From Patiriisocius marinus (GTDB taxonomy: Bacteria; Bacteroidota; Bacteroidia; Flavobacteriales; Flavobacteriaceae): 64,000 nt of DNA. The stretch lies in assembly GCF_008974325.1 (NCBI RefSeq), contig NZ_BKCG01000008.1:1-64000 (forward strand), given 5' to 3'. The notes under the pieces were generated by a model, which saw nothing but the letters and a program-made list of their open reading frames with translations, was not told where the DNA came from and did not search any database. Shown one piece after another: positions 3,529 to 54,159 of this stretch (within the stretch, counting starts at the first letter, position 1; every line of letters begins with the position of its first letter). The position numbers were made by a program, and so were the translations under genes.

Positions 3529-4224
3529 CTAATCGATTTTTGCAGGTTTTAAAATAAGATCATTGTCAGATGCCAATTTGGCAAATTCCTCTGCACTTAA
3601 GGTATTAGATGGTTCCATTCCTGGTTCTACTCCTACTTTTTTGAAAAAATCCAACAAACCATGCTTAGCATTTGGAACAGTAGCAAAAACCAGTTTTAAA
3701 GGTTCATTACCAGTATTTTGGAAAGAGTGCCATTCTCCAGGTGCCGTATACCATACATAACCTTCTTTAACAATTGTTTCTTTACGGTCATTGTTCTCAT
3801 AATTTATAACGATACCAGTTCCTGAAATAAAATAAGCAATCTCTTCCGTCTTATTATGCTTGTGCTCTGGTAAGGCTCCACCTACACCTAACTCGTATTT
3901 TGAAAAACCTGAAGAGGCATCAGGGTGACTTTCAGGATCCATATAAATTTGAAGTAATCCTCCAGACCCAAGCTTGTCTTTGCTCTCTGGAAATATCCAC
4001 AATTGTTGAGCATCTTCTGGCTTTACTATTCTTTTACTAGTGTGTGAATGCGTGGAATTATCGTGAATATGAGATTCTTCTTTTTCGTTAAGAGAATGAG
4101 CTGTTAATGAGTCATCTTTTTTATCAGATTTATTCACATTTTCACCACAGCCTTGAACAATGATGAATAACGTGGTTATGACTGCTAATTTCATTACTTT
4201 AATGTTCTTTTTGTTTTTAAGCAT
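3529..4224 (-). CDS. Cupin-domain lipoprotein
   Basis: A 231-residue protein with a basic N-terminus, hydrophobic segment and lipobox VQGC (Cys about residue 26), so probably a membrane-anchored periplasmic lipoprotein. After a His/Ser-rich linker comes a single cupin barrel. Motif 1 is PEHKHNKTEEIAYFISGTG (the His-x-His, Glu and Gly metal-site pattern) and motif 2 is PGEWHSFQN. A metal-bound sensor or small-molecule enzyme is possible, but the substrate cannot be read. An internal ATG at 4194 is an alternative start. It is on the same strand as the AraC and flavoprotein genes, 114 bp upstream of the AraC gene. Confidence 0.8.
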   Translation of the reverse strand: MLKNKKNIKVMKLAVITTLFIIVQGCGENVNKSDKKDDSLTAHSLNEKEESHIHDNSTHSHTSKRIVKPEDAQQLWIFPESKDKLGSGGLLQIYMDPESHPDASSGFSKYELGVGGALPEHKHNKTEEIAYFISGTGIVINYENNDRKETIVKEGYVWYTAPGEWHSFQNTGNEPLKLVFATVPNAKHGLLDFFKKVGVEPGMEPSNTLSAEEFAKLASDNDLILKPAKID

Positions 4225-50937: not shown

Positions 50938-51369
50938 ATGAGATCCCCCCTATTAGAGACTATTAATTTAGACTTTGTCAAACTTGAAATTTATGATGAA
51001 TATATTGTGACAACCGTTCACGAAGGGGTACTTTTTGATCACAAAAAACTAGACGAAGTACATAAAGTATTTGACAAGTATTTTAAACATAAACCTTTCG
51101 GTTATATTTCAAATAGAGTATTTGATTACACAGTAAATCCTACTAGTTTTATATATTCATTACAATATGAAAACTTAGTCGGTACCGCTATAGTTTGTTA
51201 TAATGATAAATCATACAGAAACGCCCAATTTGAAAGTACGTTGCATAACTGTTTAATTGAAATTTTTCACATCGAGTCTAAAGCCTTAGAGTGGATTTCG
51301 ACTCAATTAGAGTCTTTTAAAAAAAAGCAGGCCTATAAGCCGGGTTCTGTTCAATCTAAGTTATCCTAG
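50938..51369 (+). CDS. STAS/SpoIIAA-like conserved protein overlapping rnpB
   Basis: A 143-residue paralogue of the protein at 34523-34885 (shared PFGYISNRVFDYTVNP block and terminal ALEWIS helix). Its last 14 or so codons (QAYKPGSVQSKLS) lie antisense over the 3' end of rnpB, while the paralogue stops before this tail. The preceding Lys codons correspond to the rnpB terminator T-run. Function unknown. Confidence 0.68.
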   Translation: MRSPLLETINLDFVKLEIYDEYIVTTVHEGVLFDHKKLDEVHKVFDKYFKHKPFGYISNRVFDYTVNPTSFIYSLQYENLVGTAIVCYNDKSYRNAQFESTLHNCLIEIFHIESKALEWISTQLESFKKKQAYKPGSVQSKLS

Positions 51370-51640
51370 AAATTCCTTACCATTTATCTAGATAGTACGT
51401 TACCGCACTATTCAATCTGCCTACCCTCCAACACGGGCGGGAACCCTTAGCGCTGGTTTACGTGGCATTTCACCGCATAGAGTTTACCTGGTTTCACTAC
51501 AGCATTACCTGTACATACTTTCTGTTGCACTTGTCCTATCTTAAAACAAGTTTAAGACGACGGCCGTTAGCCGCTATGCTTCCCTATGGTGCCCGGACTT
51601 TCCTCCCCCAATTAAAATTGGCGACGGTAAGGCGGCCTGC
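51327..51640 (-). ncRNA. rnpB: RNase P RNA (bacterial type A)
   Basis: On the minus strand, the conserved GGAGGAAAGTCCGGGC block near the 5' end and ACAGAACCCGGCTTATAGGC near the 3' end are diagnostic. The ends pair as stem P1 (GCAGGCC with GGCCTGC). A T-run follows the 3' end as terminator. A TACATTTG -7 box lies just upstream at 51646-51653. Catalytic RNA that matures tRNA 5' ends. The total length of about 315 nt is compact. Confidence 0.93.
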
Positions 51641-51645
51641 TGCGG

Positions 51646-51750: not shown

Positions 51751-52827
51751 ATGGAACCTTTTATAGTATCAGCCAGAAAGTACAGACCCCTCGTTTTTAA
51801 GGACGTAGTGGGACAACAGGCTATAACTAATACTTTAGAAAACGCCATAGAAAGTAATCATTTAGCGCAAGCATTATTGTTTACAGGGCCAAGAGGTGTG
51901 GGTAAAACAACCTGTGCTCGAATTTTAGCAAAGAAAATAAATCAGGATGGTACAGATCAAACTGATGAAGATTTTGCATTTAATATTTTTGAATTAGATG
52001 CTGCTTCTAATAACTCTGTAGATGATATTAGAAATCTGACTGACCAAGTTAGAATTCCACCACAAGTAGGAAAATACAAAGTATATATTATTGATGAGGT
52101 ACACATGTTGTCATCATCAGCATTTAATGCATTTCTAAAAACTCTAGAAGAACCACCTAAACACGCCATATTTATACTTGCAACAACTGAGAAACATAAG
52201 ATTATACCAACTATACTTTCTCGTTGTCAAATATTCGATTTTAAACGAATTACAGTAAAAGACATTAAAGAACATCTTCACGATGTTGCAAAACAAGAAG
52301 GTATTGAAGCTGAAGATGACGCATTACACGTTATCGCTCAAAAAGCAGATGGTGCATTAAGAGATGCACTTTCAATATTTGACCGTGTGGTTAGTTTTTC
52401 AGGTAAAAACCTTACCCGAAAAGCAGTTACAGAAAACCTGAACGTATTAGATTACACTTACTACTTTGCGATAACCGATTTATTTCTTGCAAATGATATC
52501 CCTAAAATACTATTAGCTTATGACACCATTTTATCTAAGGGGTTTGATGGGCACCATTTTGTTATGGGTCTAGCATCACACTTTAGAGATATAATGGTTT
52601 GTCAAAACCAAGTTACCATTCAACTACTTGAAGTAGGTGAACAAGTTAAGGCAATGTACTTTGAACAATCGCAAAAATGTGACCGAGACTTTTTATTGGA
52701 AGGTATTGAACTAGCTAACAATTGTGACTTAAAGTACAAAACATCACAAAACCAACGCTTACTCGTAGAGTTATGCTTAATGCAATTAGCTTCGCTTACT
52801 GCTAAAAAAAAAACTCCAGTAGCATAG
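51751..52827 (+). CDS. dnaX: DNA polymerase III subunit gamma (dnaX, zero-frame product)
   Basis: A 358-residue clamp-loader ATPase: Walker A GPRGVGKTT (46-54), Walker B YIIDEVHML, sensor 1 FILATTEKHKI, and SRC motif in LSRCQIFDF. The Cys4 zinc module found in other DnaX proteins is absent, as I recall for flavobacterial forms. The frame ends AKKKTPVA just after a run of ten A (52804-52813). The tau-specific part continues in the -1 frame up to 53543, so full-length tau needs frameshifting or slippage. Confidence 0.92.
   Translation: MEPFIVSARKYRPLVFKDVVGQQAITNTLENAIESNHLAQALLFTGPRGVGKTTCARILAKKINQDGTDQTDEDFAFNIFELDAASNNSVDDIRNLTDQVRIPPQVGKYKVYIIDEVHMLSSSAFNAFLKTLEEPPKHAIFILATTEKHKIIPTILSRCQIFDFKRITVKDIKEHLHDVAKQEGIEAEDDALHVIAQKADGALRDALSIFDRVVSFSGKNLTRKAVTENLNVLDYTYYFAITDLFLANDIPKILLAYDTILSKGFDGHHFVMGLASHFRDIMVCQNQVTIQLLEVGEQVKAMYFEQSQKCDRDFLLEGIELANNCDLKYKTSQNQRLLVELCLMQLASLTAKKKTPVA
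52804..52813 (+). other. Ten-A slippery run in dnaX
   Basis: GCT AAA AAA AAA ACT in the zero frame; moving to the -1 frame here opens 244 codons. A small GGAG-aca-CTCC hairpin follows about 10 bp after the run. The arrangement resembles slippage sites known in Thermus and E. coli dnaX, but a sequencing error in the homopolymer is possible. Confidence 0.6.
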
Positions 52828-53543
52828 GAGACACTCCATTTATACTTCCACCATCACATTTTAATGACGTTACTCCTATTTCTCCTCCTGAAATATTAGA
52901 TATCGAAAAGAGTGAACAACCATCAGGTTACACTAGTGCAATTAACAAAGAAAGTACTGAACCAAACACTCATGTAATAGCTAAAACCGAAGTAACCGAT
53001 AAACAAACTACAACAAAAACTGAAAGTCCTGCTGAAGTCTCTCAACAAAAAAAGGCTCCAGAAATAAATATACCTAGACGGGAAAGACAAGTATCTGCGC
53101 TATCATTAAAAAGTATTGTTGCTAAAAAGAAACTCAAACTAGAGCAAGAAGCAAACGAACCAGACGTTGAAAATTTACCTACTAATCCATTTACAGAAGC
53201 CGAAATGCTTGAAGGATGGAAAGAATTTACCGAAATAGTAGCAAAAGAAGGAAAACATATTCTTCACTCTCATTTAAGGATGGGCACTCCAAAATTAGAA
53301 GGAAACTTAATTCATTTAGTTTTTCCTAACGAGACTATTAAAATAGAAATGGAACGCGAAAAGTATGAGTTACTTCAGTTTTTGCGTAAAAAACTTCAAA
53401 ATTATGATGTAGATCTCTCTATCGAAGTAGATGAAAAAGAGATGAAACGTTATGCTTATACCACTAAAGAAAAATACGAAAAATTAGTAGCGATAAACCC
53501 GCTACTTGAAGAACTTCGAAAAACATTCGACTTAGATATTTAA
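52812..53543 (+). CDS. dnaX: DNA polymerase III tau-specific C-terminal region (dnaX, -1 frame)
   Basis: Open -1 frame from the A-run to a stop at 53543. It starts NSSSIGDTPFILPPSHF, which fits flavobacterial DnaX directly after the ATPase part, then has a Thr/Glu-rich linker, LSLKSIVAKKKLKLEQ, and the tau C-terminal domain from about 53190 (LEGWKEFTEIVAKEGK, ending ELRKTFDLDI). This part would bind the polymerase alpha subunit. It has no start codon of its own near its beginning; the first ATG is at 53205. Confidence 0.8.
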   Translation, partial: NSSSIGDTPFILPPSHFNDVTPISPPEILDIEKSEQPSGYTSAINKESTEPNTHVIAKTEVTDKQTTTKTESPAEVSQQKKAPEINIPRRERQVSALSLKSIVAKKKLKLEQEANEPDVENLPTNPFTEAEMLEGWKEFTEIVAKEGKHILHSHLRMGTPKLEGNLIHLVFPNETIKIEMEREKYELLQFLRKKLQNYDVDLSIEVDEKEMKRYAYTTKEKYEKLVAINPLLEELRKTFDLDI

Positions 53544-53544
53544 A

Positions 53545-54159
53545 ATGAAAGCACAAGACGACACTTCAGTAATAAAAATGTTAGGATTAAAATTACCTAC
53601 AGATCCACGTTGGGTAAATATTGTCGAAAAAAATATTGAAGAAATCCTTACAGATCACGCTTACTGTGAGCAGAAAGCAACTTCAACAGCTATTTCACTT
53701 ATAGTTTCATTTCCGGAATATTCTGACTTAGTTCAAGAAATGGTGAAACTTGTAAAAGAAGAAATAAGCCATTTCAAGCTAGTACACGATAAAATTTTAG
53801 AACGTGGTTGGACAATGGGGCGCGATCGTAAAGATGAATATGTGCTTGCCTTATTGAAATTCTTCCCAAAAGGTGGAAGTCGAACTACTCAGCTAGTACA
53901 TCGCTTATTATTAGCCGCACTCATTGAAGCTAGAAGCTGTGAACGTTTCAGATTACTGAGCGAACAACTTGAAGATCAAGAACTAGCAACTTTTTATCGT
54001 AATTTGATGATTAGTGAAGCAGGACATTATACAATGTTTTTAGGATTTGCAAGACAATACGGTGACCGCCAAGAAGTGGATCAAAAATGGCAACAATTAT
54101 TAGAATTTGAAGCCGAAGTAATGTCTAATTTAAGTACTGGCGGCAGTATTCACGGATAA
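53545..54159 (+). CDS. miaE: tRNA-(ms2io6A)-hydroxylase MiaE
   Basis: A 204-residue ferritin-like diiron enzyme with the ligand pattern EEISHFKLVHDK (ExxH) and SEAGHYTMF (ExxH). It hydroxylates the isopentenyl group at position 37 of tRNAs. Begins 1 bp after the dnaX stop. Confidence 0.9.
   Translation: MKAQDDTSVIKMLGLKLPTDPRWVNIVEKNIEEILTDHAYCEQKATSTAISLIVSFPEYSDLVQEMVKLVKEEISHFKLVHDKILERGWTMGRDRKDEYVLALLKFFPKGGSRTTQLVHRLLLAALIEARSCERFRLLSEQLEDQELATFYRNLMISEAGHYTMFLGFARQYGDRQEVDQKWQQLLEFEAEVMSNLSTGGSIHG

Follow-up and report, generated by a model that had tools for sequence, protein, structure and literature searches.

Probable transcript slippage at a conserved run of ten adenines in dnaX of Patiriisocius marinus and related Flavobacteriaceae

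Introduction

In both E. coli and Thermus, the zero frame of dnaX encodes tau and gamma results from a shift, which in Thermus takes the form of transcript slippage at nine A's (PMC5009743, available part of the article). The same article gives a length of 9-10 bp for the RNA-DNA hybrid and describes the importance of gamma as disputed. Antonov et al. (2013; PMC3711429) assigned two-ORF dnaX genes to a new type of gene structure, with 17 examples in 12 genera; nine of these genes contain ten A's. As far as the accessible portion of that article goes, gamma is encoded there in the zero frame and tau is reached by a -1 change, for which slippage was proposed; shorter runs were listed for Chlorobium and Chloroherpeton species.

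The gene studied here lies in a window of 64,000 nucleotides (positions 1 to 64,000 of contig 8, NZ_BKCG01000008.1, forward strand) of the marine bacterium Patiriisocius marinus, whose genome (GCF_008974325.1) comprises 3.56 Mb. Its dnaX has the same junction as the two-ORF genes, with gamma in the zero frame, tau in the -1 frame and a poly-A run, and there is no essential difference from the genes of Antonov et al. as their accessible text describes them. Since two-ORF dnaX genes with ten A's were published in 2013 (PMC3711429, same portion), P. marinus adds a member, not a type. A preliminary description of the locus had likened it to Thermus and E. coli. The likeness holds insofar as tau depends on a change of frame at A10, but it does not extend to the zero-frame product, which is gamma here and, by the excerpted account, tau there. 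With a probability of roughly 0.7, we consider P. marinus dnaX to be a programmed two-product gene that is expressed via slippage of RNA polymerase at A10.

Materials and methods

The dnaX loci originated from three sources, namely 39 genomes including P. marinus itself (30 loci and 8 further regions), the best 80 of 585 matches in a similarity scan, and an evenly drawn sample of 296 genomes from the phylum (30 loci and 60 further regions). The latter 60 regions comprised all 37 class members with a match, five additional members of the order and 18 loci outside the class, which were hand-picked among the matches listed and 17 of which were analysed. Subtraction of six duplicates from 208 junctions gave 202 distinct dnaX junctions; as the loci are related, counts of loci are not independent. 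Loci whose DnaX match fell short of codon 330 (L002-L004 and L202 among them) were left out of the counts. The closest loci among the matches listed belonged to Aequorivita, Ulvibacter and other Flavobacteriaceae.

Results

The start codon of P. marinus dnaX is the ATG at 51751. According to ORF reading and domain matches, the zero frame (51751-52827, + strand) encodes gamma, a protein of 358 amino acids with the AAA+ ATPase and lid parts. The proposed slippage site, identified by its sequence and conservation, is a run of exactly ten A's (52804-52813, + strand), which is flanked by T on the 5' side and C on the 3' side and covers codons 352-354 plus one base. Past the run, the zero frame is closed after four whole codons by TAG (52825-52827, + strand) and the +1 frame after two codons. 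The tau-specific part follows in the -1 frame (52815-53543, + strand); it has 242 codons and a terminal TAA (53541-53543) and includes the ILPPSHF linker motif and the C-terminal domain. By arithmetic, one extra base at the run gives a tau of 597 amino acids. The lengths of 358 residues for gamma and about 600 for tau in the preliminary description are thus correct, whereas its statement that the ATPase part ends eight codons after the run holds only when the count begins at the first A.

NCBIfam model PRK14971 (DnaX) matched the zero-frame part at model positions 1-367 of 614 (8.4e-191, 636 bits) and the -1-frame part at positions 402-613 (E 3.8e-24, 85 bits). Because the two halves match this model at successive positions they represent one DnaX, and the earlier view of a family-like tau part in the -1 frame was borne out, even though each half alone remains below the whole-protein cut-off of 685 bits. 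The N-terminal DnaX model TIGR02397 was passed with 386 bits (cut-off 250). On the C-terminal part of tau, Pfam yielded PF11490 alone, at 20.8 bits and under its cut-off of 26.3. As to the neighbourhood, RNase P RNA (RF00010, 191 bits) is encoded just upstream of dnaX on the - strand (51320-51643), its end being overlapped by a 143-aa ORF at 50938-51369, and a MiaE-like gene (53545-54159; NF047790, 102 bits, below the cut-off of 320) begins one base past the tau stop.

A locus of this layout might be a decaying dnaX, or it might be a split gene in which a separate start gives rise to a tau C-terminal protein beside gamma. A frame of 112 amino acids does begin with an ATG at 53205, and 5 of 37 gamma-default family loci possess a possible tau-frame start codon before the run. 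In P. marinus, however, the tau frame is closed by a TAA at 52803-52805, which extends into the run, and no ATG, GTG or TTG follows before 53205. The 130 codons between the run and this ATG are thus open but devoid of start codons, which rules out separate initiation for the linker. Furthermore, comparison of the last 125 codons of the -1 part with seven relatives gave pN values of 0.24-0.27, well under the pS values of 0.69-0.87, and judged by these values the tau-specific part is constrained as a protein. As this part evolves as a protein and lacks a start codon before 53205, tau can only be reached by changing frame at the run. The genome, which is rated 100% complete, gave no second full-length dnaX match. 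A split or decaying gene is therefore highly improbable.

At the dnaX junction, at least nine A's were present in 185 of the 202 distinct loci, compared to 4 of 2076 control windows of equal size from the same genes. Hence, the A10 of P. marinus is no sequencing accident. The commonest run length was A10 (146 of 202 junctions). Runs of at least nine A's occurred in all 126 loci nearest to P. marinus dnaX (at least 74% identity, long N-terminal part), in 37 of the 42 order and class loci and in 7 of the 17 analysed loci outside the class that had been hand-picked among the matches listed. The five order and class loci without the run (L159, L163, L174, L182 and L187; A3-A7) all have tau in the zero frame. 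At ten conserved Lys columns AAG was used by 10-44% of the loci, the run is nevertheless pure A. The preliminary description had made its reading depend on the homopolymer not being missing in relatives, and the run is indeed kept.

The window itself contains a single A10, while 9.0 were expected from dinucleotide shuffles, and the genome harbors 26 exact A10 runs. Seventeen of these lie in no ORF of at least 60 codons; dnaX is among the remaining nine, several of which are situated at ORF edges. Two copies of a 182-aa ORF in the genome (L227 and L228, 542 of 549 bases alike) contain an internal A10 run each (position 1502-1511). Their interpretation as an insertion sequence was dropped; Pfam assigns L227 no family. 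Two other loci deviate at the junction. The dnaX of L038, whose 0.3 Mb genome belongs to the same order, has no A run and stops at the gamma part, and no tau part was found downstream within the fetched stretch. The dnaX gene of Flavobacterium davisii (L113) has A9 at the junction, beyond which no frame is open for 100 codons.

The default frame varies among the relatives. Tau was located in the zero frame in 118 of the 185 loci with nine or more A's, whereas gamma was the zero-frame product and tau required a -1 change in 59, and a +1 change was needed in three (L088, L149 and L103, the A11 of which could be a homopolymer error), leaving five unassigned; among the loci with shorter runs tau was in the zero frame in 15 and two were unassigned. 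A recount gave the same figures. L040 was counted as tau-zero-frame by its open length although its C-terminal match sits in another frame; this gene also carries further breaks in its assembly. The unassigned loci were L010, L029, L050, L101 and L210 (contig ends), L038 and L113. Tau was thus outside the zero frame in 62 of the 180 classified loci with long runs. In a FastTree phylogeny of 135 loci, 17 changes of the default frame were counted, and the starred branches imply a minimum of 12 for the tau-zero-frame group. Since shuffled frame labels gave a mean of 38 changes, the labels cluster on the tree and the layout is usually inherited.

Homopolymers are error-prone, and with a true run of eleven A's the P. 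marinus gene would be single-frame. Such a sequencing or assembly error conflicts not only with the prevalence of A10 but also with the recurrence of the split layout, as 27 of the 30 rows of the Flavobacterium-like clade are gamma-default. Moreover, the nearest locus on the tree, L005 from the same genus, is tau-default and has an identical A10, while P. marinus dnaX is without seven bases just 5' of the run that are present in L005 and its kin. The frame difference between the two genes consists of this absence adjoining the run, and not of the run length; we give an error very little credence. The dependence on a -1 shift at A10 that had been stated beforehand is accordingly valid for the DNA of P. 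marinus but not for the family, L005 having tau in the zero frame. Judged from the sequences, the family conserves the run and a stop in each non-tau frame, whereas the direction of the shift varies.

On the other hand, the mRNA may be faithful and tau may be yielded by -1 programmed ribosomal frameshifting or by sliding of the ribosome on A_AAA_AAA. Each of the 185 runs with at least nine A's contains this heptamer in the zero frame. P. marinus dnaX lacks the E. coli-type slip site A_AAA_AAG (the run reads AAA AAA AAA ACT), yet A_AAA_AAA is there, and UUU was the only tRNA-Lys, like in E. coli, among the typed tRNAs of the genome, of which a first look had scored 150 of 313 candidates; this favours ribosomal shifting. 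For one reversed-type Chlorobium dnaX, stimulators resembling those of E. coli are mentioned (PMC5009743, available part). In P. marinus, a 96-base stretch folds at z -2.17 versus shuffles; one of its stems encloses the run and the second, a long-range stem, begins 11 bases past it. Despite this value a downstream stimulatory structure was not used for interpretation, since folding in the 124 family loci did not exceed that of controls (mean z -0.20 and -0.42 against -0.01, -0.55 and -0.19 in controls; 10 and 15 loci below -2 against 4, 12 and 8). AGGA or AGGAG was found 6-20 bases upstream of the run in none of these 124 loci. The GGAG within the last eight bases before the run in 93 of the 124 loci was discarded as a Shine-Dalgarno-like stimulator, because it is the 3' arm of the hairpin described below and too near. 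A Shine-Dalgarno sequence within the last eight bases is too close to stimulate a -1 shift.

Among the 180 classified loci with long runs, 172 have stops in both non-tau frames no more than ten codons away and 142 no more than five, compared to 29.9% and 11.2%, respectively, at 3944 control positions. An I[IV]P motif 3' of the run was present in 94 of 122 loci searched (P. marinus has ILP and is outside this set), and its first Ile is encoded by ATA in 93 of them and in 59 of the 60 tau-zero-frame genes with the motif. In their N-terminal part, these genes use ATA for only 21.6% of Ile codons, with a maximum of 0.48 at conserved Ile columns. ATA followed by ATT creates a TAA in a neighbouring frame, which in tau-zero-frame genes is reached only after a +1 change. 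The conservation of this stop fits slippage in two directions, as a -1 ribosomal shift never visits the +1 frame. Sliding ribosomes could, and sliding on A runs, reported in the available part of PMC4363877, could explain the stops in two frames as well.

Upstream of the run, at the stretch corresponding to 52771-52803 (+ strand) in P. marinus, much of the family is predicted to form an RNA hairpin. Unlike downstream stretches and controls, the 60 bases 5' of the run folded better than shuffles in 124 family loci (mean z -1.87, 61 below -2), and in 128 family loci the best hairpin closing on the base before the run had a mean energy of -6.0 kcal/mol. At the other positions tested this measure was -1.8 kcal/mol or weaker, save at base -2 (-4.5) and base -3 (-3.0). 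Compared to synonymous shuffles with the protein fixed (60 each), the hairpin was supported at p<=0.05 in 90 of the 128 loci. In an alignment of 77 distinct family windows, an 8-bp helix was paired in 74.2% of the cells versus 37-55% for slid versions, and its covariation was 0.258 versus 0.072-0.170. The case for the hairpin rests on these measures of upstream fold, closing-position energy, synonymous shuffles and helix pairing or covariation. Pairs with two-sided changes in the 77 windows showed no excess (4 versus a shuffled mean of 5.1), further pair types no clear excess (20 versus 17.8), and in one slid version 41 cells were changed on both sides compared to 33 in the true helix. RNAalifold detected no pair in the 77 windows and nothing in two tree-derived subsets, a 48-row clade and the 18-row clade of P. 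marinus. It found the hairpin in one of three subsets, the gamma-default Flavobacterium-like loci (-8.0), a set of 25 loci with 13 distinct windows that had been selected on frame class, identity and run length.

Beyond the family, the hairpin was unsupported (p<=0.05 in 4 of 57 loci, and in 1 of 17 loci without the run). Within the genus of P. marinus, two of ten loci tested reached p<=0.05 (L005 and L007). In P. marinus dnaX a hairpin abutting the run was not supported (-2.8 kcal/mol, p 0.40 versus synonymous shuffles), and the seven bases absent there carry the 3' arm of the hairpin in relatives. The hairpin is probably a feature of the family that was lost in P. marinus.

Discussion

Most likely, it is a family-wide habit that a short and a long DnaX protein are both made by slippage during transcription. 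RNA polymerase, presumably the slipping agent, would slip on ten template T's and generate an mRNA pool with nine, ten, eleven or more A's. In P. marinus, ordinary translation of mRNA with ten A's would yield gamma (358 amino acids) and mRNA with eleven A's full-length tau (597 amino acids), while mRNA with nine or twelve A's would give a short protein resembling gamma. It is assumed that both gamma and tau exist as proteins and that gamma has a use.

We favour slippage in both directions, which agrees more closely with the repeated frame changes and the paired stops than a -1 ribosomal shift does. Most loci retain ten A's where seven would suffice for the ribosomal heptamer, the three loci that require +1 could not be served by a -1 ribosomal shift, and stops guard both non-tau frames. 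In addition, the hairpin, where present, sits at the position where the nascent RNA leaves the 9-10 bp hybrid filled by the run. On the other hand, it is a point against slippage that the hairpin, which would indicate RNA polymerase, is unsupported in P. marinus dnaX itself. Altogether, ribosomal frameshifting or sliding on a faithful mRNA is considered unlikely.

A wider reading, to which we give a little less than even odds, joins these observations. The dnaX cassette of the Flavobacteriaceae would consist of an 8-bp RNA hairpin and A10, i.e. the geometry of an intrinsic terminator with A in place of U, on which RNA polymerase may slip so freely that the frame of the DNA becomes irrelevant. 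The gene could then move among tau-, gamma- and +1-default layouts and keep both products. The A run would be older than this cassette, as it extends across Bacteroidia and some sister classes, and in P. marinus the loss of seven bases would have removed the 3' arm and flipped the frame at once. In the open-licence literature, mostly titles and the beginnings of abstracts, neither a family-wide survey of dnaX slippage in Bacteroidota nor a hairpin before this run was recognised; the hairpin that adjoins the run in many Flavobacteriaceae is possibly new.

Read plainly, such dnaX genes appear truncated or frameshifted, but their state is probably the normal one. As a natural experiment, the repeated frame changes suggest that the genomic frame past an efficient slippage site is nearly neutral. 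Retention of the run also bears on the dispute about gamma, since a useless gamma would predict that the run is frequently lost.

Among the known systems, dnaX of Thermus thermophilus (A9) shares with P. marinus the long A run, the stops in both frames and, presumably, the two products (PMC5009743 and PMC1088944, available parts). Both sequence marks of the Thermus type, a run of at least nine A's and near stops in the two non-tau frames, are found in P. marinus. The genes differ in that T. thermophilus has tau in the zero frame and slippage was measured there, whereas in P. marinus it is deduced from the sequence. E. coli dnaX, which depends on a -1 ribosomal frameshift, resembles the family genes by giving two products at an A-rich site. 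It differs by A_AAA_AAG with an upstream Shine-Dalgarno sequence and a downstream stem-loop, neither of these two stimulators being evident in the 124 family loci, and by gamma being the shifted product. The hairpin-stimulated slippage of the Roseiflexus IS630 element has a hairpin directly 5' of the run, as in much of the family though not in P. marinus. As described in the available part of PMC5009743, the run of this element is U5C5 and slippage drops one base, whereas the run of the family is A10, a length reported to slip unaided. Hairpin-stimulated slippage, described in that account for the Roseiflexus insertion sequence, could thus be studied in a cellular gene by means of the dnaX hairpin of this family.
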